From Thermithiobacillus tepidarius DSM 3134 (GTDB lineage Bacteria > Pseudomonadota > Gammaproteobacteria > Acidithiobacillales > Thermithiobacillaceae), in contig NZ_KE384096.1 in NCBI RefSeq assembly GCF_000423825.1, positions 248,001 through 312,000 of the forward strand: 64,000 nt of DNA, written 5' to 3'. Within the stretch, counting starts at the first letter, position 1. Each line of letters begins with the position of its first letter. Shown here piece after piece: positions 10,267 to 37,759 of this stretch. The position numbers were made by a program, and so were the translations under genes. Below the pieces are notes generated by a model. That model was not told the origin of the DNA and made no database searches. It saw only the letters and a list, made by a program, of their open reading frames with translations.

Positions 10267-11022
10267 GTGACTCAGACGAGCTTTGGCGAGAGCTTCTTCA
10301 CGGAAGACCACCTGGTCAGGGATGGCGCGCAAATCCGGGCCATCCTGCAGGACATGGCCGCAGAGCGGGCGGTTCTGAGCGTGCAGGTCGCGCCGCTCGG
10401 CGGGGCCGGCTTCAATTCCTCCATCGTGGAGGTCAACCCGGCGGGCAAGTTCTTTCTCATGGACGAGCTGGTGCCCGCTGCCGGCAACCAGCAGCTTCGC
10501 GCCAGCAAGCGCCTGCGCATCCTCGGGCGGGCCAAGGGCATTGCCACCGCCTTCGACGCGCAAGTCGAAGCGCTCGTCCGTGACCGCTACGGCGAGGTGT
10601 ACAAGATCCCGTTTCCGGGCAAGCTCTACCAGATGCAGCGCCGCGAGCACTTTCGGGTGCCGCCCAGCGCGCACGAGCCGGTGCCCGTGCGCTTGCTGCC
10701 GGTTTCCGGCCGGCTGCTGGCGGGTGAGCTCTTCGACATCAGTCTCGGTGGTCTGGGCCTGCTGCTGAAAGGGGAGGCAACGGGAGTGCTGGCGCGCGGC
10801 GACAACTTGCGCTGCCAGTTCACCCTGCCCGAGGAGCCGCCTATCGAGGTGGAGGTGGAAATCTGCTCGCTGCTCAACGTGCGCACGCGCAACGACGCCA
10901 GCCTGCTGCGCATCGGCTGCCGCTTTCTCAAACCTGCCCCGGCCGCACGCGCAGCCATCCAGCGCTACGTCATCCAACGCGACCGCGAGATCCTGCGCCA
11001 GTCCCGCCTGGACAAGCTATGA
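10267..11022 (+). CDS. ycgR: YcgR-like flagellar brake protein with PilZ domain
   Basis: The 251-residue protein has an N-terminal YcgR-type domain (about 1-115) and a C-terminal PilZ domain that binds cyclic di-GMP. The two ligand motifs are visible: the RxxxR-type element in QRREHFRV (about 124-131) and DISLGGLGL (about 158-166). Family members bind the flagellar motor or switch when c-di-GMP is high and slow rotation. It starts at GTG 10267 with a weak ribosome-binding site. Its stop codon overlaps the fliW stop on the other strand by 6 bases, so the two transcripts converge. The symbol is by domain architecture; the name flgZ is used in Pseudomonas. Confidence 0.82.
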   Translation: MTQTSFGESFFTEDHLVRDGAQIRAILQDMAAERAVLSVQVAPLGGAGFNSSIVEVNPAGKFFLMDELVPAAGNQQLRASKRLRILGRAKGIATAFDAQVEALVRDRYGEVYKIPFPGKLYQMQRREHFRVPPSAHEPVPVRLLPVSGRLLAGELFDISLGGLGLLLKGEATGVLARGDNLRCQFTLPEEPPIEVEVEICSLLNVRTRNDASLLRIGCRFLKPAPAARAAIQRYVIQRDREILRQSRLDKL

Positions 11023-11514
11023 CGCGCCGCCAGCCGGCGCCAGCACCATGCACGGCAGTTCCGCCGTGCCGCCACTCTCCTGATCCAGCTCCCCAGCGGC
11101 CGCCAGCACGCCATCCCTGACCTGGCCGGCATCGATCACCCACTGGCCGAAACTGCGCTGGGCCGCATCGAACCAGAGCGGACCGAGCTTGTGGGCGCGG
11201 ATGGATTCGCTCGCATTTTCCGGCAGAATGACCATCACCAGCAGGCGCAGTTGCTCCACCGCCAGTTTCTGCTGGCGGGCGCACTCGGCCAAATCATAGT
11301 GCAGGCCGAAGTAACGCGGTTCGGTCAGCACGAAAGCCAAACCCGGTTCTTCCAGCGATTGCAGCCAGAGAAAAGGACGATAGTCCGGCACGTCCAGCAG
11401 GATGAACTGACGCAGATCCTCGAAGCCCAGAATGGGGGACAGGCACTGCAGCTGTTTCGAGGCATCCGGGTGGAGCGGACCGAAGCGGGTAGTGATCGTG
11501 GTGCTGTTATTCAT
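11017..11514 (-). CDS. fliW: Flagellar assembly factor FliW
   Basis: FliW binds either flagellin or CsrA. When flagellin is exported, freed FliW sequesters CsrA and relieves translation block of flagellin mRNA. The 165-residue protein shows family features: [15 protein letters not shown], the aromatic [17 protein letters not shown] segment and [12 protein letters not shown] 11514 lies inside the end of csrA (8-base overlap), implying translational coupling. An in-frame ATG at 11529 is less likely because it lies deeper in csrA. FliW is common in Firmicutes, spirochaetes and Epsilonproteobacteria and rare in FleQ-type gammaproteobacteria. Confidence 0.92.
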
Positions 11515-11746
11515 GCGGCGTCTTGGCATCCCGTTTCAGCATGGCGGCCAATTGGCCCAGGTCGACGCTCTGGGCAGCGCGGTTGTCGCGCCGGACCGCA
11601 TCGTAGATTTCTTCACGCAGGATGGGCAGTTCGGTGGGGCTCTCGATGCCGATGCGGACCTGGTTGCTGTCGATCCGGGTGATGACGATGCGAATCTGGT
11701 CGCCGATGCGGATTGCTTCACCCCGTTTGCGCGTCAGGATCAGCAC
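11507..11746 (-). CDS. csrA: CsrA, FliW-type translational regulator
   Basis: CsrA is a dimeric RNA-binding protein that recognises GGA motifs and blocks ribosome access. The 79-residue product opens with [16 protein letters not shown] from a GTG start and has the conserved LREEIY segment that carries the RNA-binding arginine. Its C-terminal tail ([17 protein letters not shown]) resembles the tail of Bacillus subtilis CsrA (NNRAA...), the part used for FliW binding. The enterobacterial type lacks it. The gene starts 2 bases after the flgN stop and overlaps fliW by 8 bases. The upstream in-frame extension lies within flgN and is not used. Confidence 0.94.
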
Positions 11747-11748
11747 GG

Positions 11749-12279
11749 TCAGACTTTGCCCAGGGACCGGTGGGCGCTGACGGGCGCGCTTTGCCCATGG
11801 GGATCGTAGAGGCGGGTCTTGCTCATGCCATCGCCGCACAGCACGTCCAGGGCGCCGCGGACGTGCTGGAGCGCGAGTTCGACCATGTAGCCGTTTTCCT
11901 GGTTGAGGGCGCGGACCCGGCGGGCATGGTCGAGCAACGCTTCCCAGCGCGAACGCAGCAGCTGCTGCTCGGCGGGAAAATGATCGAGGACGGCCTGCAC
12001 ATCCTCGGTGGAGCTTGTGCCGGTCAGCCTGCGGATCAGCTGCCGGCGCTCGTCTTCCGCGTGCGCCACGGCTCGCAGCAGCTCGGCTTTCTGTGTGGAC
12101 AGGGAGGGCAGGGCATCGCTGTTGCCGGCCTGCAGGACTTCGCGCTCCTGTTGCAGGAGGGCGGCCAGGGCGCCCAGCAGTTCCGTCTCGCGCTCGAGCG
12201 CCTGCACCAGCACGGTGGCCTGGGCGTGGTTTTCGGTACCGTGCGCCGCGGCAGTGTCGTGGGCGGTCGGAGCGGACAT
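11749..12279 (-). CDS. flgN: FlgN-family flagellar export chaperone
   Basis: FlgN chaperones the hook-filament junction proteins FlgK and FlgL to the export gate. The 176-residue protein is helical and has the family pattern: a leucine/glutamate-rich first helix ([22 protein letters not shown]), a central helix and the C-terminal [20 protein letters not shown] segment (compare xNxxNxxLL). It starts at ATG 12279, 7 bases after flgM, and is followed 2 bases later by csrA. A second, shorter FlgN-like gene lies before flgK at 20862, so client preference may be divided between them. Confidence 0.85.
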
Positions 12280-12286
12280 GAGCGGG

Positions 12287-12580
12287 TCAGTCTGCCTGGG
12301 CGATGCGGGTGTAGGCCAGGATCTTCTGGGCAACGGCGCCGGCATCCACTTGGTACTGGCCGCTGGCGAGGGCGGCCTTGATCTCGCTTACCCGTTGCTG
12401 ATCGACCGGCGCCTGGGTCTGCGCCTGCAAGGCGCGCGCGGCGGCGGACAGTTGCACCTGGTCTTCCCGCTGGCTGGCGGCAAGCTTGGCCGCCGCTTGG
12501 CCGGCAGCGCTGTTTCGGTTCTCGCCGAGGGCTTGGGTGCCGCTTTGCAGCGGATGGAGATTGTTGTTGTCGACTTTCAT
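12287..12580 (-). CDS. flgM: Anti-sigma-28 factor FlgM
   Basis: FlgM binds FliA and blocks late flagellar transcription until it is secreted through the finished hook. The 97-residue product has a disordered N-terminus and the conserved C-terminal binding region (DQVQLSAAARALQAQ; VSEIKAALASGQYQVDAGAVAQKILA). It has its own sigma-28-type promoter just upstream (12603-12629) and a good AAAAGGAG ribosome-binding site. It can also be read from the flgA sigma-54 promoter. Confidence 0.93.
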   Translation of the reverse strand: MKVDNNNLHPLQSGTQALGENRNSAAGQAAAKLAASQREDQVQLSAAARALQAQTQAPVDQQRVSEIKAALASGQYQVDAGAVAQKILAYTRIAQAD

Positions 12581-30074: not shown

Positions 30075-31337
30075 ATGGCTGTTGAAACCGATCTCATTTC
30101 CTGGAAAACCGATGCCTGGAAAAACCCGAACATGGTGTCCTGGTATCACCAGCGCATGATCGACGACAAAGGCACCAACCGCCTGAAGAACACGGTGGAA
30201 ACCAATCTGTGCCAGCGCTATGCCGTAGGCAGCGAACTGCTCGACGTCGGCATCGGCACCGGCCGCGGCAGCCTGCCGCTGCTGCGGGAAGGCTATCGGG
30301 TCACTGGCATCGACAGTTCCCAGGCCATGCTCGACATGTGCCGCCAGCTGGCGGCTCCGCATGCGATCGACCTCCGGCAGGGGGATCTCGCCAAATTACC
30401 TTTCGATGATGCCCGCTTCGACACCCTGTTGTCCCTGAACGTCATGGTGCACTTCCCCCATTGGCAGCAGATCCTGGCCGAGTGGAGCCGGGTGCTAAGG
30501 CCGGGCGGGCGTATCATCTTCGATGTCCATTCGCTGGATCACGTCGAGCAGGTATCCCGGGTGCGCGGCGTACCCGTGGACCGGCTGCTGGAGGGCGAGC
30601 TCTCCGGCGGTCCCTCCCAATTCCTGCAGCGCCTGCGCGTGAATGAACTCGTGGCCGAGGCCGGGCGCCTCGGCCTGTCGGTGCGGGCCATCGTCCCTTA
30701 CGCCGGCGTGTTTGGCGCGGGCAATGTCAATTTCTGGCTGAAGGGGAGCAGGGCGGACGGCCGCGCCTGGGAGCGTTTGTTGTCCTGGACGGCGGTGGAC
30801 GAGCAGCTGTTCGATTTCGCACTCTTTTTGGAGGAGTCGCTCTTCGCCCACCTCAGCAGCATCGTCACCGGCCGCTTCATGGTGGTGCTGGAGAAGACTC
30901 CGCAGCCGGAACACAACGCCGCGTGGCTGGCCCGGAACGAAGCCATCAATCGCATGCTCGGCGGCGAGCTGACGGCGCAAGCCCTGGCCGCCTTTCTGCC
31001 CGACGATCTGGAACGCTGGCGCCAGCGCCTCCAGGCCATGCTGGATTACCGGCCCAATCTGGTCCTGCTTTTCCATCTCTACTCCGCCTGCATGGATGCT
31101 CCGCATTGGCTGGCGCTGCGCGATTTGCTGACGCCCGCGCAGTGCGACGAAATCGAGCGGTGGGCGACCAGCGCCCGCATCGACCGCGCCGCCTACGCGC
31201 TCGTATCCTCCTGGCATCAGGAACCCCAGTGCGCCTCCACGCTCATGCATCGCGGCGTGCCCCTCGGCCCCGGGCTGGAATACCAGTTGATGCGCGATGT
31301 GCTGGAACAAGCCTTCAATCTCTTTTCGGTACGCTGA
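30075..31337 (+). CDS. SAM-dependent methyltransferase with unassigned C-terminal domain
   Basis: The 420-residue protein has a class I methyltransferase domain in its N-terminal half: motif I LLDVGIGTGRG (about 54-64), TGIDSSQAMLDMC, FDTLLSLNVMVHFPHW and RVLRPGGRIIFDVHS. The last 190 residues are probably helical (FLPDDLERWRQRLQAMLDY; LTPAQCDEIERWATSARI) and resemble no family I can name. ATG 30075 has AAGGGAG upstream; an in-frame ATG at 30021 lacks this. It lies after pseI and 1 base before the giant glycosyltransferase, so O- or N-methylation of a flagellar glycan is a reasonable guess, not a demonstrated role. Confidence 0.7.
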   Translation: MAVETDLISWKTDAWKNPNMVSWYHQRMIDDKGTNRLKNTVETNLCQRYAVGSELLDVGIGTGRGSLPLLREGYRVTGIDSSQAMLDMCRQLAAPHAIDLRQGDLAKLPFDDARFDTLLSLNVMVHFPHWQQILAEWSRVLRPGGRIIFDVHSLDHVEQVSRVRGVPVDRLLEGELSGGPSQFLQRLRVNELVAEAGRLGLSVRAIVPYAGVFGAGNVNFWLKGSRADGRAWERLLSWTAVDEQLFDFALFLEESLFAHLSSIVTGRFMVVLEKTPQPEHNAAWLARNEAINRMLGGELTAQALAAFLPDDLERWRQRLQAMLDYRPNLVLLFHLYSACMDAPHWLALRDLLTPAQCDEIERWATSARIDRAAYALVSSWHQEPQCASTLMHRGVPLGPGLEYQLMRDVLEQAFNLFSVR

Positions 31338-31338
31338 C

Positions 31339-34300
31339 ATGAACGAAGCCGCCCTGATTTCCCTGCTGTGGCCCAAGAACCAGCATCTGCTGCGCCCGTA
31401 TCTGGCCCAGCGGCCGCGGACGGTCTATACGCTGGCCGCCTATGCCAACCCCGCGCTGCAGGAAATGGTGGCCCAGAGCGGCAGCCGCGTCGGCATTCTG
31501 GAGCAGCTCCTGCCCGAGGCCCGCATCAACGCGCTGCGTGCCGAAGCGGCGGAGAAGGCGCAGAGCACCGCACGCGTGGTCGAAGATGCCGACTGGTCCA
31601 CTTTCTGTGTCGCCGGAGGCTGCTCCGCCAAGCGTTTGCGCTCGGTCCTTACGCAGGATCTGCCGGCGCGCCTCTTCGAATCCATGCTGCTCATCGAGGC
31701 GCTGGACGCGGCACGCGAGCGCCATGCGGTCGAGTTGCTGGTGGTGAACGAGGACCTGATGCAGGCCGCCAAGACGGCCGTGTTGTGGGCCCGCAACGCC
31801 CAAATTCCCAGCCTGCACCTGTCCCACAGCGCCATCCTGGGGCAGCCCTACACCGTCCACCACCAGTTCAATGCCGACTGCATGGCCGTGTTCGGCAGCC
31901 GCGGACAGGCCGGATACCTGGACATGGGCATTGCCCCGGACCGGATGCCGGCGACCGGCAATCCCGCCTGGGATGCCTACGCGGATCTGGCGCCACGCCG
32001 CGCGGAGGTCCGCCACTGGGTCTTCGACAAATATCAGCTGCAGGCGGACGCGCCGCTGCTGGTTTTCGGCACCACCTGGGCGGCCAAGCTGACCGCCTTT
32101 GCCGATCCGGACATCTATGACCGCACCGTGCGCGCTTTTCTGCGCAGCTGCCGGCAATTGCGGCAATCCGGCCGACGTGTCCACTGCGTCATCAAGGATC
32201 GCGCCAGCAACCTGGGCTTTGGGCGGGAACGGGTCGGCGCCATCGCTCGGAGCGAAGGGCTGGAGCCCGATGATTACCTTTACACCGTGGAGGACATGGA
32301 GGCGCTGACGCTCGCGGCCGATCTCCTGATCTCGGTGGACTCCAACCTGTCCATCGAGGCGATGCTGGCCGGCACGCCGGCCCTCAATCTCTGGGACGCC
32401 ACGGGCTGGCTGCTGGGACCCTTCTTTGCCGCCGAGGACGGCGTGCTGCAGGTCCACCCGGATCGCCTGGCGGATATCTTGGCGCAACTGCTGGATGCCC
32501 CCGCCCTGCGCGAGGCGCTGTTGAGCAGCCTGCAATCCCGCGTGGCGGATTTCAACGCCGGCCACGACGGCAAAGCCGCGCAGCGCGTGGCCGAGCTGAT
32601 GGCCGGGCTCGCTTTGCCTTTGGCTGGCACCCAGCCGATGGAGCGGCCGGGCGCGGGCTACGTGTGGGAGGAACTGTCCAGCCCGCGCGAGGCGGATCTG
32701 AAAGGGGAGTACCACGACCATCCGCGCACCGAGCTGGTGGAAATGTTCGCCCATGCGCCGCGGCGGGTGCTGGACATCGGTTGCGCCACGGGCGCCACCG
32801 GCCAAGTGATCAAGTCGCGCTGGCCGCAGGCGCACGTGACCGGCATCGAGCTGAACCGAGCGGCCGCCCGCATTGCCGCCCAGCGCATCGACGTGGTGCT
32901 GAACGACAAGCTGGAGAACCTGGAGCTGGAGCGCTATGGGATCGCCCGCGGCAGCATCGATACCGTGATCGTCGCCGACGTCCTGGAGCACCTCTACGAT
33001 CCCTGGGGCACCCTGCTGCAGTTGCGCCCTTACCTGAGCGACGATGCCCAGGTCCTGGCCAGCATTCCCAACGCCCGCAATCTCTGGCTCATCAACGAGC
33101 TGATCAACGGCCGTTGGAGCTATGCTCAGGAAGGGTTGTTGGACGTGACCCACCTGCGCTTCTTTACCCGTCAGGAAATCGAAAAGCTGTTCCAGGAAAC
33201 GGGCTACGACATCCAGGCGGTCGGGCACACCCTGGACGGCCGCTTGGCCGGCATGTCCGCCCAAGGCCAGCAGCGCTTCAACCTCAACACCGACAAGCTG
33301 ACCCTGCGCAACGTCGACGAAGCGGAGCTGCAGGAGCTGAAGACGCTGCAGTTCCTGGTGTTGGCCCGCCCCCGGCCGCAGCGGCAGGTCGCGCAGGCCG
33401 CTCCCGCCGTGTCGCTGCCGGCAGCGCCACCCGCGCCTGCCAGCGATCCCTACGGCCGTTGGCAGGCCGCCCATGCCTATCGGGAGCGCGACGCCCAGTG
33501 GATGGCGGAGCGCATGGCCAGCTGGACGCAGCACCCGCGCTTTCACTTGGCGGTGATCGTGCTGCCGGAGCGGGAGGAATGGCTGGCGCGCAACATCGAC
33601 GCCTTGGCCGCCCAGTTCTATCCCGACTGGCGCCTCACCATCGTGGCCTTCAGCCCCGCGCCCGAGGGCGTGCAGGACTTGGCAGTGCTGAACTGGGTCC
33701 AGGTCCAGGACAGCCCGCTGGCGGCGCTCAACCGGGTGTTGGCCGAAACCGAGGCCGACTGGGTCGGCGTGTTCGAGGCGGGCGATCAGATCGCGCCCCA
33801 TGCCTTCTTTGCTTTCGCCGACGCCGTCAACGCGCATCCCGACTGGCAGCTCGTCTACAGCGACGAGGATAGTCTGGACGCGAACGGCCAGCGCTCCAAT
33901 CCGCACTTCAAGCCCGAGTTCAACCTCGACCTGCTGCGTTCCATGCCCTACATGGGCGGCTTGCTGCTCCTGCGGCGGGAGCTGTTCGCGGCCATCGGCG
34001 GCTTTGATCCCGGCATGGACGGCGCCGAGGACTACGACCTGGTGCTGCGCGCGGTCGAGCGCCTGGAAAGCCGGCACATCGGCCATGTCGCCGATGTGCT
34101 TTACCATCGCTACAGCGGGGGTGGGCACAGCCAGTGTCCCGTGCAGCAGGTGCTGGAGCAGGGAAGGCAGGCGGTGGCGGCGCACTTGGAGCGCCTGGCC
34201 ATCCTCGCCCAGGTGGAGCACGGCGCTTTTCCGCCGAGCTACCGGGTGCGCTATGCCCACGAGCGTCAGCCCATCGTCTCCATCATCATCCCCACCCGGG

Positions 34301-36126
34301 ACCAGCTCCCCTATCTGCAGCGCTGCATCGAGTCCATCATCGAGCACACCCGTTATCCGCACTACGAGATTCTCGTGGTGGACAACGACAGCCGGACGCC
34401 CGAAGCCCGCGCGTACCTGGAAGGGCTGCGCGGCGTGGACGAGGAGCGCCTGCGCGTGCTCAGCTATCCGCACGCCTTCAATTTTTCGGCCATGAACAAC
34501 CTGGCTGCCGGCGTGGCGAAGGGCGAGTATCTCCTGCTCTTGAACAACGACACCGCCGTGGTGCAGGCGGATTGGCTGGATGTGCTCATGAGCCATGCCC
34601 AGCGCCCCGAGGTGGGCATCGTCGGCCCGCGCCTGCTCTATCCGAACGGCAAGGTCCAGCATGCCGGCGTCATCCTCGGCCTGGGCGGCTCGCCTGCCGA
34701 GCATCCCTTCATCGGCTATCCGCCCGACGAGCGGGGTTACTTCGGCCGCCTGCGGCTTGAGCAGAACTACTCGGCGGTGACCGGCGCCTGCCTGCTCATC
34801 CGCAAAAGCGTGTATGAGGAGGTGGGCGGCCTGGACGAGGCACGCTTTCAGGTGTCCTACAACGACATCGACCTGTGCCTGAAGGTACGCGAGCGCGGCT
34901 ATCTCGTCACCTGGACGCCCTTTGCCACCCTGCTGCACGAAGGCTCCGTGAGCCAGAAAGGGCAGGTGGAGCAGGCGCCTGATGCGGCCAAGCAGGCACG
35001 CTTCGCGGCGGAGCAGGAGCGCATGTATGACAAGTGGCTGCCGCAACTGGCCTTCGATCCGGCTTACAACCGCAACCTGAATCTGCTGAGCCGCAGCTTC
35101 GAGATCGAAGCCGAGGCTGCCGTGACCTGGAGCCCGGATTGGCGTCCGCGACCGCGCATCCTGGTGCATCCGGCCGACCGCTTCGGCTGCGGCGAGTACC
35201 GCATCATCGCGCCCATGCGCGCCCTGAACGAGGCCGGCCGGGTGCAGGGCTGGGAAACGCAACGGATCTTCACCCCGCCGGAAATGGCGCGCATGGATCC
35301 CGACTGCATCGTCATGCAGCGTCAGCTGGAATGGGGGCAGATCGATGCCATCGCCCAGCACAAGCGCTTCAGCCGTGCCTTCCGCGTCTACGAGATCGAC
35401 GACCTCATCACCAATCTGCCGGTCAAGAGCGTGCACAAGGCCGCCATCTACAAGGACATTGCCAAGCGGTTCCGCAAGGGCGTGGGCCTGTGCGATCGCC
35501 TGGTGGTGGCCACGGAGCCCCTGGCTGAAGCCTTCAAGACCTTCAGCCCCGACGTGCGGGTGGTGCACAACTACATCGAAAGGGCCAAATGGGGGCACTT
35601 GCGGCCGCAACGGGGCCAGGGGAGCAAGCCGCGGGTCGGCTGGGCGGGCGGCTCCGGTCACACCGGCGACCTGGAGCTCATCGCCGACGTGGTCAGAACC
35701 TTGAGCCGGGAGGTGGATTGGGTGTTCTTCGGCCTGTGTCCGGAAGCCCTGCGGCCCTACGTGCGCGAGATCCACGAGCCGGTGCCCATCGACGACTACC
35801 CGGCCAAGCTGGCGAGCCTGAATCTGGATCTAGCGCTGGCGCCGCTGGAGGAGATCCCCTTCAACGAGGCCAAGAGCCACCTGCGCCTCCTGGAATATGG
35901 CATGCTGGGCTATCCGGTGGTGTGCACGGACATCTTCCCTTACCGAAATGGTTTTCCGGTGACGCGCGTGCGCAACCGCTACAAGGATTGGCTCGACGCC
36001 ATTCGCGATCACTTGAATGATCCCGAAGCCAGCGCGGTGGCGGGCAGTGCCCTGCGCGAGCACGTCAACCGGCACTGGGTGCTGGAGGACAACCTTGATG
36101 CCTGGCTGCGTGGCTGGCTGCCCTGA
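31339..36126 (+). CDS. Giant multi-domain glycosyltransferase/methyltransferase of the flagellin glycosylation locus
   Basis: At 1595 residues this is the largest gene of the window. The visible parts are, in order: a GT-B-like domain (about 1-440, with LLISVDSNLSIEAMLAG); a class I methyltransferase (RVLDIGCATGATG near 476, VIVADVLEHLYDPWG); a GT2-like domain (about 734-960, YSDEDSLD and GGFDPGMDGAEDYDL); a second GT2 domain (about 978-1260, IVSIIIPTRDQLPYL and LLLNNDTAVVQADWLD); and a GT4-like GT-B domain (about 1272-1595, GWAGGSGHTGDLELI). Such proteins usually build O-glycans on surface structures. It lies between pse genes and flagellin. No membrane segment or signal peptide is seen, so it should act in the cytoplasm. 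The stop lies 172 bases before the flagellin ATG. Confidence 0.8.
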   Translation: MNEAALISLLWPKNQHLLRPYLAQRPRTVYTLAAYANPALQEMVAQSGSRVGILEQLLPEARINALRAEAAEKAQSTARVVEDADWSTFCVAGGCSAKRLRSVLTQDLPARLFESMLLIEALDAARERHAVELLVVNEDLMQAAKTAVLWARNAQIPSLHLSHSAILGQPYTVHHQFNADCMAVFGSRGQAGYLDMGIAPDRMPATGNPAWDAYADLAPRRAEVRHWVFDKYQLQADAPLLVFGTTWAAKLTAFADPDIYDRTVRAFLRSCRQLRQSGRRVHCVIKDRASNLGFGRERVGAIARSEGLEPDDYLYTVEDMEALTLAADLLISVDSNLSIEAMLAGTPALNLWDATGWLLGPFFAAEDGVLQVHPDRLADILAQLLDAPALREALLSSLQSRVADFNAGHDGKAAQRVAELMAGLALPLAGTQPMERPGAGYVWEELSSPREADLKGEYHDHPRTELVEMFAHAPRRVLDIGCATGATGQVIKSRWPQAHVTGIELNRAAARIAAQRIDVVLNDKLENLELERYGIARGSIDTVIVADVLEHLYDPWGTLLQLRPYLSDDAQVLASIPNARNLWLINELINGRWSYAQEGLLDVTHLRFFTRQEIEKLFQETGYDIQAVGHTLDGRLAGMSAQGQQRFNLNTDKLTLRNVDEAELQELKTLQFLVLARPRPQRQVAQAAPAVSLPAAPPAPASDPYGRWQAAHAYRERDAQWMAERMASWTQHPRFHLAVIVLPEREEWLARNIDALAAQFYPDWRLTIVAFSPAPEGVQDLAVLNWVQVQDSPLAALNRVLAETEADWVGVFEAGDQIAPHAFFAFADAVNAHPDWQLVYSDEDSLDANGQRSNPHFKPEFNLDLLRSMPYMGGLLLLRRELFAAIGGFDPGMDGAEDYDLVLRAVERLESRHIGHVADVLYHRYSGGGHSQCPVQQVLEQGRQAVAAHLERLAILAQVEHGAFPPSYRVRYAHERQPIVSIIIPTRDQLPYLQRCIESIIEHTRYPHYEILVVDNDSRTPEARAYLEGLRGVDEERLRVLSYPHAFNFSAMNNLAAGVAKGEYLLLLNNDTAVVQADWLDVLMSHAQRPEVGIVGPRLLYPNGKVQHAGVILGLGGSPAEHPFIGYPPDERGYFGRLRLEQNYSAVTGACLLIRKSVYEEVGGLDEARFQVSYNDIDLCLKVRERGYLVTWTPFATLLHEGSVSQKGQVEQAPDAAKQARFAAEQERMYDKWLPQLAFDPAYNRNLNLLSRSFEIEAEAAVTWSPDWRPRPRILVHPADRFGCGEYRIIAPMRALNEAGRVQGWETQRIFTPPEMARMDPDCIVMQRQLEWGQIDAIAQHKRFSRAFRVYEIDDLITNLPVKSVHKAAIYKDIAKRFRKGVGLCDRLVVATEPLAEAFKTFSPDVRVVHNYIERAKWGHLRPQRGQGSKPRVGWAGGSGHTGDLELIADVVRTLSREVDWVFFGLCPEALRPYVREIHEPVPIDDYPAKLASLNLDLALAPLEEIPFNEAKSHLRLLEYGMLGYPVVCTDIFPYRNGFPVTRVRNRYKDWLDAIRDHLNDPEASAVAGSALREHVNRHWVLEDNLDAWLRGWLP

Positions 36127-36195: not shown

Positions 36196-36223
36196 TAAAG
36201 TTTTTTCCGGAACGTGCCGTTAA
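36196..36223 (+). promoter_or_regulatory. Sigma-28 (FliA) promoter of flagellin
   Basis: TAAAGTTT-N12-GCCGTTAA has a perfect -35 and a nearly perfect -10, with a spacer one base longer than the standard 11. The start is expected near 36230. It is the only promoter seen between the glycosyltransferase and flagellin genes. Confidence 0.85.
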
Positions 36224-36225
36224 TG

Positions 36226-36255
36226 GGTTCATCGGGGAATGCTCCCCGATGAACC
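36226..36255 (+). promoter_or_regulatory. Strong 5' hairpin of the flagellin mRNA
   Basis: GGTTCATCGGGGA (36226-36238) is the exact reverse complement of TCCCCGATGAACC (36243-36255), leaving loop ATGC. The 13-bp stem begins at or just before the predicted transcription start, which suggests a 5' cap-like element that protects the message, or a GGA presentation site at the end of the stem. Confidence 0.75.
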
Positions 36256-36256
36256 T

Positions 36257-36270
36257 CAGCATGGAAGCTG
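36257..36270 (+). promoter_or_regulatory. Predicted CsrA site 1 in the flagellin leader
   Basis: CAGC-ATGGAA-GCTG folds into a 4-bp stem (5 with a U-G pair) and a six-base loop whose ANGGA matches the preferred CsrA loop motif. It lies 25 bases upstream of the second GGA site, a spacing one CsrA dimer can bridge. Confidence 0.6.
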
Positions 36271-36283
36271 GCTACCGCTTAAG

Positions 36284-36292
36284 AACAGGAGC
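36284..36292 (+). promoter_or_regulatory. Predicted CsrA site 2 on the flagellin Shine-Dalgarno
   Basis: AACAGGAGC contains ACAGGA, matching the core of the CsrA consensus, and at the same time AGGAG is the ribosome-binding site 7 bases before ATG 36299. CsrA bound here would block initiation, as shown for hag in Bacillus subtilis. Confidence 0.6.
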
Positions 36293-36298
36293 AAAACC

Positions 36299-37759
36299 AT
36301 GGCAATGTCCGGCATCATCAATACCAACGCCAACTCCCTTTTCACCCAAAACGCCCTGAACGGCACCTCCAGCGCGCTCAACCAGGCGCTGCAGCGGCTC
36401 TCCACCGGCCTCAAGATCAACAGCCCCGGCGATGACCCGGCCGGCTATGCGGTGGCCCAGCGCTTCACCACCCAGATCAACGGCACCAATCAGGCGATCT
36501 CCAACGCCCAGCAGGCGACCGCCCTGGTGCAGTCGGCCACCGGCGGCATCCAGAAGTCGACCGACCTGCTGCAGCAGATCCGCAAGATCGCGGTGCAGGC
36601 GGCCAACGGCTCCAACAGTGACAGCGATCGCGCGGCGCTGCAGAACGTGGTGGCGCAGCTGAAGGATCAGATCTCCACCATCGCCAAGCAGACCCAGTTC
36701 AACGGCAAGAGCCTGCTGGACGGCACCTTCTCCGGCGAGCAGTTCCAGGTCGGCGCCAACGCCTTCCAGATCATCAACGTCAGCGTCGGCAACGCCAGCG
36801 GCAACAAGATCGGCGTCCAGGAAGTGAATAAGTTTAAGGCCAGTGACTCCGTCTTCGTCACCGGCGGTAACTACGCCTTCACGACCGGCAACCTGGACAT
36901 CTCGGGCAGCGCTGGCGCCGCGCGCATTTCGGTGACCAATTCCGACAGCGCCAAGGAAGTGGCGGCCGCCATCAACCTGAAGACCCAGAACACCAACGTG
37001 AGCGCCGCGGCGCGCACGAGCCAGGAGTTCACGGTCGCATCCGGTGGCGCCATCAGCTTCACGCTGGCCAACGGCGATTTCGGCGGGCTGAGCAACAGCG
37101 TCAACATCTCCGCCAACATCTCCGACACCAATGACCTGACCGCGCTGGTGACCGCCATCAACGCGCAGACCGCGAAGACCGGCATCACCGCGACTTCCAA
37201 CGCCAACAAGATCACCCTGACCCAGGCCGACGGCGAGAACATCGTGTTCAGCGGCGTGGCTGGCGCAGCCGTGATGTCCGCGGACAACGCGGTCGTGTTC
37301 AGCGGCACGGGCAATAGCGCGGGCATTATCCAGGGTCAGGTGTCCCTGCAGTCGGATGCCGGCTTCAGCACCAGCGGCGATGCCCAGGTCATGGCCACCA
37401 CTGCCGGCACCAGCTTTGCCAGCGGTGTCTTCTCCTCCGCACTGTCCTCCGTGTCCGACATCGACGTGAGCACGGTCGACGGCGCGAACAAGGCCCTGCA
37501 GATCGCCGACTTCGCCCTCAAGTTCCTCAATGCCGAAGGCGGACGTCTGGGTGCTCAGCAGGAGCGGATCAAGGCCACCCTGGCCACCTTGCAGACCGCC
37601 AGCCTCAACCTGACGGCGGGACGCTCGGCGGTGCAGGACGCGAACCTGGCCGAGGAGACCTCGGAACTGACCAAGAACCAGATCCTGCAGCAGGCGGGCA
37701 TCTCGACCTTGGCGCAGGCCAACCAACTGCAGCAGGCCTTCCTCAAGCTGCTGCCCTAA
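36299..37759 (+). CDS. fliC: Flagellin
   Basis: This is the single filament protein gene in the window. The 486-residue product has the conserved N-terminal D0/D1 region (SGIINTNANSLFTQNAL; LSTGLKINSPGDDPAG) and C-terminal region (VQDANLAEETSELTKNQILQQAG; ANQLQQAFLKLLP). The middle part contains flagellin hook-like IN repeats and many S and T residues, candidate glycan sites for the pse products. ATG 36299 is chosen because AGGAG precedes it; the in-frame ATG at 36239 lies in the hairpin loop. The name fliC is used; fliC versus flaA is convention only. Confidence 0.96.
   Translation: MAMSGIINTNANSLFTQNALNGTSSALNQALQRLSTGLKINSPGDDPAGYAVAQRFTTQINGTNQAISNAQQATALVQSATGGIQKSTDLLQQIRKIAVQAANGSNSDSDRAALQNVVAQLKDQISTIAKQTQFNGKSLLDGTFSGEQFQVGANAFQIINVSVGNASGNKIGVQEVNKFKASDSVFVTGGNYAFTTGNLDISGSAGAARISVTNSDSAKEVAAAINLKTQNTNVSAAARTSQEFTVASGGAISFTLANGDFGGLSNSVNISANISDTNDLTALVTAINAQTAKTGITATSNANKITLTQADGENIVFSGVAGAAVMSADNAVVFSGTGNSAGIIQGQVSLQSDAGFSTSGDAQVMATTAGTSFASGVFSSALSSVSDIDVSTVDGANKALQIADFALKFLNAEGGRLGAQQERIKATLATLQTASLNLTAGRSAVQDANLAEETSELTKNQILQQAGISTLAQANQLQQAFLKLLP

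Follow-up and report, generated by a model that had tools for sequence, protein, structure and literature searches.

The feedback loop of CsrA, FliW and flagellin is known from Bacillus and Campylobacter. Control of the hag leader of Bacillus subtilis by CsrA and FliW is reportedly described by Yakhnin (2007) and Mukherjee (2011). In Campylobacter jejuni a first GGA hexaloop of the flaA leader is followed at 21 nt by another over the ribosome site, as proven by EMSA, footprinting and mutation (PMC4894983). On the protein side, FliW binding needs V51 and N55 of CsrA in C. jejuni; for N55 the same was shown in B. subtilis (PMC7829508). In the Gammaproteobacteria CsrA is usually controlled by small RNAs and FliW is rare (we found it in 11 of 369 sampled genomes of the class); FliW is furthermore anti-correlated with the sRNA-activating BarA-UvrY system (PMC4682653). 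Here we describe a gammaproteobacterial flagellin leader that we take, with a probability of about 0.8, to be a two-site CsrA target under relief by FliW and part of a flagellin homeostasis loop.

The window that we analyzed is a stretch of 64,000 nt from Thermithiobacillus tepidarius DSM 3134 (Acidithiobacillales), whose genome comprises 2,958,498 bases. On its forward strand it contains the flagellin gene (36299–37759; Flagellin_N 1.6e-36, Flagellin_C 3.7e-18), the sole filament flagellin found in the genome, the second match to flagellin being a distant FlgL-like protein. On the same strand, a sigma-28 (FliA)-type promoter of the form TAAAGTTT-N12-GCCGTTAA lies upstream at 36196–36223, with its boxes at 36196–36203 and 36216–36223, and relatives have a promoter of this type equally far upstream. 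By the sigma-28 rule (6–8 nt past the −10 box) transcription is predicted to start at about 36229–36231. A preliminary description of this DNA had spoken of a FleQ/sigma-54 organism: regulators of the FleQ/FleS/FleR type are indeed encoded, but the flagellin promoter itself is of the sigma-28 type. The leader then contains hairpin 1, a 13-bp inverted repeat GGTTCATCGGGGA-ATGC-TCCCCGATGAACC with the loop AUGC (36226–36255), recognized by sequence, folding and shuffles. It is followed by hairpin 2, CAGC-AUGGAA-GCUG (36257–36270, loop GGA at 36263–36265), whose ANGGAN hexaloop is the proposed high-affinity CsrA site, and by the Shine-Dalgarno sequence ACAGGAG (36285–36291), the AGGAG of which aligns in relatives and the GGA of which (36288–36290) belongs to the proposed second site. 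All three lie on the forward strand. On re-reading the sequence, the letters and coordinates given earlier for these parts were all borne out, including a spacing of exactly 25 nt between the two GGAs. The earlier picture of a 13-bp stem at the predicted start has to be adjusted, as the repeat is present but transcription likely starts inside it: hairpin 1 is unusually long in the window, part of it possibly precedes the transcription start, and the RNA may carry 8–10 bp. The flagellin reading frame runs without a stop as far upstream as an ATG that lies within the hairpin 1 loop, where the ORF caller places the start (36239); from the position of the Shine-Dalgarno sequence and from conservation we put the true start at 36299. 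Some folds additionally contained a closing helix of AGGG, just past the −10 box, with CCCU before the Shine-Dalgarno sequence, which we rejected because its 5′ strand probably precedes the transcribed region and the sequences of many relatives do not allow it.

We compared these structures with what chance would provide. The leader of 105 nt folds better than its shuffled versions (z = −3.3), and the 14-bp stem of hairpin 1 (13 bp plus a G-U pair) was matched by 0 of 200 shuffles. In the window, ANGGAN hexaloops on stems of at least 4 bp occur at a background rate of 0.0063 per 100 nt per strand, so that about 0.5% of 80-nt leaders would carry one by chance. The GGA of the Shine-Dalgarno sequence alone is weak evidence, since any strong Shine-Dalgarno sequence contains GGA. 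Hairpin 2 is of marginal stability in T. tepidarius and is formed in only about 35–77% of the predicted ensemble; in a competing fold CAUGG of the CsrA loop (36260–36264) pairs with CCAUG at the start codon (36297–36301), an alternative structure that may be peculiar to this species. A search of the leader against Rfam gave nothing above the gathering score.

Conservation of hairpin 2 carries most of the argument. Leaders were drawn from the named genomes plus relatives and yielded 28 distinct members of this flagellin lineage, the window included; these leaders are mutually related and counts among them are not independent trials. In 27 of the 28 an ANGGAN hexaloop sits on a stem of at least 3 bp, 36–38 nt before the start codon, forming an apical loop with a C-G closing pair above a GC stem (GC-AUGGAA-GC in T. 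tepidarius), and the GGA of the Shine-Dalgarno sequence always follows at about 24–25 nt from the first GGA. The many other flagellin leaders gave only 2 matches under the same scan, of which one falls in a promoter region. Within the aligned loops (alignment A1) the A, the first G and the second A are invariant, the second G is present in 27/28 and both N positions are free. The two inner pairs of the stem never change, pair 42-55 is CG in 12 leaders and UA in another 12, and at pair 43-54 the window alone has AU against GC in the other 27, a compensatory change in the window itself. The leaders of relatives, which the preliminary description had suggested to align, show a nearly invariant loop GGA together with paired changes in the stem. 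Set against shuffles the covariation score gave 10/500, the controls being exceeded only moderately because two pairs never vary, and sliding the partner abolishes the pairing. When a covariance model was trained on 24 relatives with the window held out, it gave the window a score of 33.6 bits (E = 2.6e-8 in a search of the window), and in the whole T. tepidarius genome the window copy was the sole significant match (E = 1.2e-6). Across 369 genomes of the class, strong matches were confined to T. tepidarius, one member of the order and G196. Weak matches in G259, G277 and G287 (E 2e-4 to 8e-4) were not matched by the composite pattern of hairpin, Shine-Dalgarno sequence and ATG, and we took them as chance in 369 genomes. 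Among the 31 genomes of the order the composite pattern marks the flagellin gene in most and has few other matches, and its reversed control matched once in the 31. Taken on sequence, structure and conservation, the leader has the form of a two-site flagellin leader, and its hairpin is very probably a CsrA target.

The genes that such a target would need are present on the reverse strand of the same window. The csrA-fliW pair named earlier at 11017–11746 is confirmed for both genes by Pfam: csrA (11507–11746, GTG start, 79 aa; CsrA 3.8e-22) is the only copy in the genome, and fliW (11017–11514, 165 aa; FliW 3.7e-17, FliW chain of 5DMB 5e-6) overlaps its end. As flgN (11749–12345; FlgN 8.7e-27) lies directly upstream, with the csrA start 2 nt past its stop, the cluster reads flgN-csrA-fliW. 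T. tepidarius CsrA aligns to the CsrA of the FliW-CsrA crystal structure 5DMB through residue 66, into the C-terminal extension, so that it combines this extension with the FliW-contact residues: V51 and N55 are both present, and N55 was found in 29 of 29 CsrAs read beside FliW. Within the 31 genomes of the order the two genes are co-present in 23/23 and co-absent in 8/8 (G002, G007, G010, G015, G018, G020, G027 and G030); the single-contig genomes G015 and G018 lack both, and in them a flagellin was not found. CsrA thus appears dispensable in the order and tied to the flagellar cluster. A search of the 31 genomes with RF00166 (PrrB_RsmZ) gave no match, which applies to that family only; such sRNAs diverge fast. 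In Acidithiobacillus caldus, deletion of rpoF, the sigma-28 gene, lowers the mRNAs of fliC, csrA and fliW alike (PMC6543871). Directly upstream of the flagellin gene (31297–36126) we also observed an open reading frame for a 1609-aa protein in which a methyltransferase domain is combined with several glycosyltransferase domains; it is a candidate for an enzyme that glycosylates flagellin.

According to the preliminary description, fliW-retaining relatives that have lost the loop GGA and the stem pairs would count against its proposal. Considering the 28 FliW-bearing genomes (members of the flagellar lineage with a readable flagellin leader), the ANGGAN hairpin is kept in its place in 26, and the only exceptions are G001 and L002. 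G001, of the same family, encodes FliW and CsrA; its flagellin is divergent (52% identity) and the hexaloop is absent. In the leader of this sister genus (L149) we noted a strong hairpin that buries the Shine-Dalgarno sequence, with ACGGAC in or beside its loop. Leader L002, from the FliW-bearing genome G196, has the loop AGGUAC and has lost the GGA. CsrA of the same genome (L158) is unusual as well: one residue is deleted, and AYRAE replaces the ILREE of most others. This hints at a decayed contact between CsrA and the leader in that genome. In G007 and G027, order members with readable flagellin leaders that encode neither FliW nor CsrA, the element is absent at that place. G010 has the element and lacks csrA and fliW; its 18.6-kb contig stops 3.7 kb upstream of flagellin, and we tentatively treat the absence as missing assembly. 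A class-wide link between FliW and the hairpin had to be rejected, as the element was not found in FliW-bearing genomes of the class outside this lineage. Separately, Tibeticola sediminis (L007) and L008 have an Acidithiobacillales-like flagellin (66%), the same leader hairpin with a 7-bp stem and an AGGGAC loop, and fliW with csrA; for the Tibeticola-named strain this is probably a case of horizontal transfer of the entire module.

The anatomy of the leader, its conservation, paired changes, gene context, co-occurrence and the FliW-contact residues support the loop of CsrA, FliW and flagellin that the preliminary description had proposed for this organism, and from them we infer CsrA binding, repression, relief by FliW and a role of hairpin 1 in T. 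tepidarius. A CsrA dimer would use one of its pockets for the hexaloop AUGGAA in hairpin 2 and the other for ACAGGAG, where it would cover the Shine-Dalgarno sequence and block translation. FliW, encoded in the same cluster, would bind CsrA near V51/N55 and take it off the leader. Flagellin building up in the cytoplasm would titrate FliW, the freed CsrA would stop flagellin translation, and flagellin synthesis would thereby track export. Hairpin 1 at the start of the transcript would most likely protect the 5′ end and keep hairpin 2 from misfolding.

The interaction could also work in another direction, with CsrA on the leader mainly protecting the mRNA or being titrated by it as by a sponge and with little direct repression of translation. 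The flaA leader of C. jejuni itself titrates CsrA (PMC4894983), and overexpression of CsrA in A. caldus lengthened the flagella and raised some flagellar transcripts (PMC13029372), whereas simple repression would predict loss of flagella; this result counts against our reading, with FliW levels uncontrolled in that experiment. In addition, the loop of hairpin 1 is itself ANGGAN in the relatives' leaders L084 and L096 (AGGGAU and AAGGAU), which may provide an extra, third CsrA site in some Acidithiobacillales. However, the second GGA is always on the Shine-Dalgarno sequence, at the near-constant distance from the first given above, which is the geometry of a repressing double site, and we regard a mainly protective or titrating role as rather unlikely.

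Improbable in our estimation is a role of the hairpins in mRNA stability and translation efficiency only, as a 5′ stabilizer and an open ribosome site with CsrA uninvolved. Hairpin 1 does behave like a protective 5′ stem: in most relatives its stem starts with the 7th base past the −10 box, the expected sigma-28 start, and its sequence is rewritten among relatives with pairing at +1 retained. When the stems were hand-aligned from the base, pairs 1, 2, 4, 5, 6 and 7 showed two-sided changes, with one mismatch in the set. Many of the relatives' short stems are, taken singly, no better than shuffles, the evidence being position and covariation. Hairpin 1 of T. tepidarius is probably a separate conserved stability or insulating element and not a CsrA site. 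A role of the hairpins in stability and translation efficiency only leaves unexplained, however, why hairpin 2 holds A.GGA. constant in its loop and lets the remaining loop positions change, and why the element is missing from the readable leaders of G007 and G027. That the inverted repeat is instead a DNA operator of a transcription factor overlapping the promoter start is very improbable, since in relatives the sequence is wholly different while pairing and position at +1 persist, as fits an RNA structure, even if the repeat in the window reaches back beyond the predicted start of transcription.

With the two-site CsrA target under FliW relief as the preferred reading, the sulfur bacteria of this order probably match flagellin production to export via the same feedback as Bacillus and Campylobacter. 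The loop is a known one; in this lineage it seems undescribed in the literature that we searched. Through a conserved leader element it would extend to an order of Gammaproteobacteria that has one csrA and controls its flagella by FleQ, sigma-54 and sigma-28. More tentatively, Acidithiobacillales CsrA might be primarily a protein of the flagellar cluster and not the usual global regulator, and flagellin might be the target with which it started; in that case the order would have given up the ancestral CsrA under sRNA control and come to use in its stead a CsrA of the FliW type, which is closer to those from outside the Gammaproteobacteria. This possibility derives from the single csrA coming and going with fliW, including its absence from complete genomes that have no flagellin.

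Compared with known systems, T. tepidarius shares with the gammaproteobacterial CsrA-CsrB/RsmZ systems the RNA-binding fold and the preference for ANGGAN loops. There, however, sRNAs antagonize CsrA, whereas T. tepidarius has FliW and a CsrA with a long C-terminus. CsrA of A. caldus is an ortholog in a flagellar cluster that binds the leaders of rpoS, flgC and others; the recent study on it (PMC13029372) leaves fliC and the flagellin leader unmentioned, and with it an obvious CsrA target, and cites FliW only for other species. With B. subtilis hag, as described in PMC7652899, the locus has in common two CsrA sites with one over the Shine-Dalgarno sequence, adjacent csrA and fliW, and a CsrA with a C-terminal extension and N55; it differs in that B. 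subtilis is a Firmicute whose csrA-fliW gene order is unlike flgN-csrA-fliW. The preliminary description had called the double site hag-like, and this holds for the two sites and for the one on the Shine-Dalgarno sequence, but the layout is nearer to C. jejuni flaA. C. jejuni is epsilonproteobacterial and its system experimentally proven. In flaA a hexaloop presents the second GGA too, and each of the two hairpins has its GGA; in the T. tepidarius leader the first element is a long 5′ hairpin whose loop has no GGA, a clear hexaloop around the Shine-Dalgarno sequence is confined to some relatives, and the spacing is 25 nt instead of 21. For C. jejuni no CsrB-type sRNA is known. In both, FliW and csrA are encoded and relatives show compensatory stem changes, and both have a short sigma-28 leader in which an ANGGA hexaloop comes first and the ribosome site then carries a further GGA (PMC4894983).
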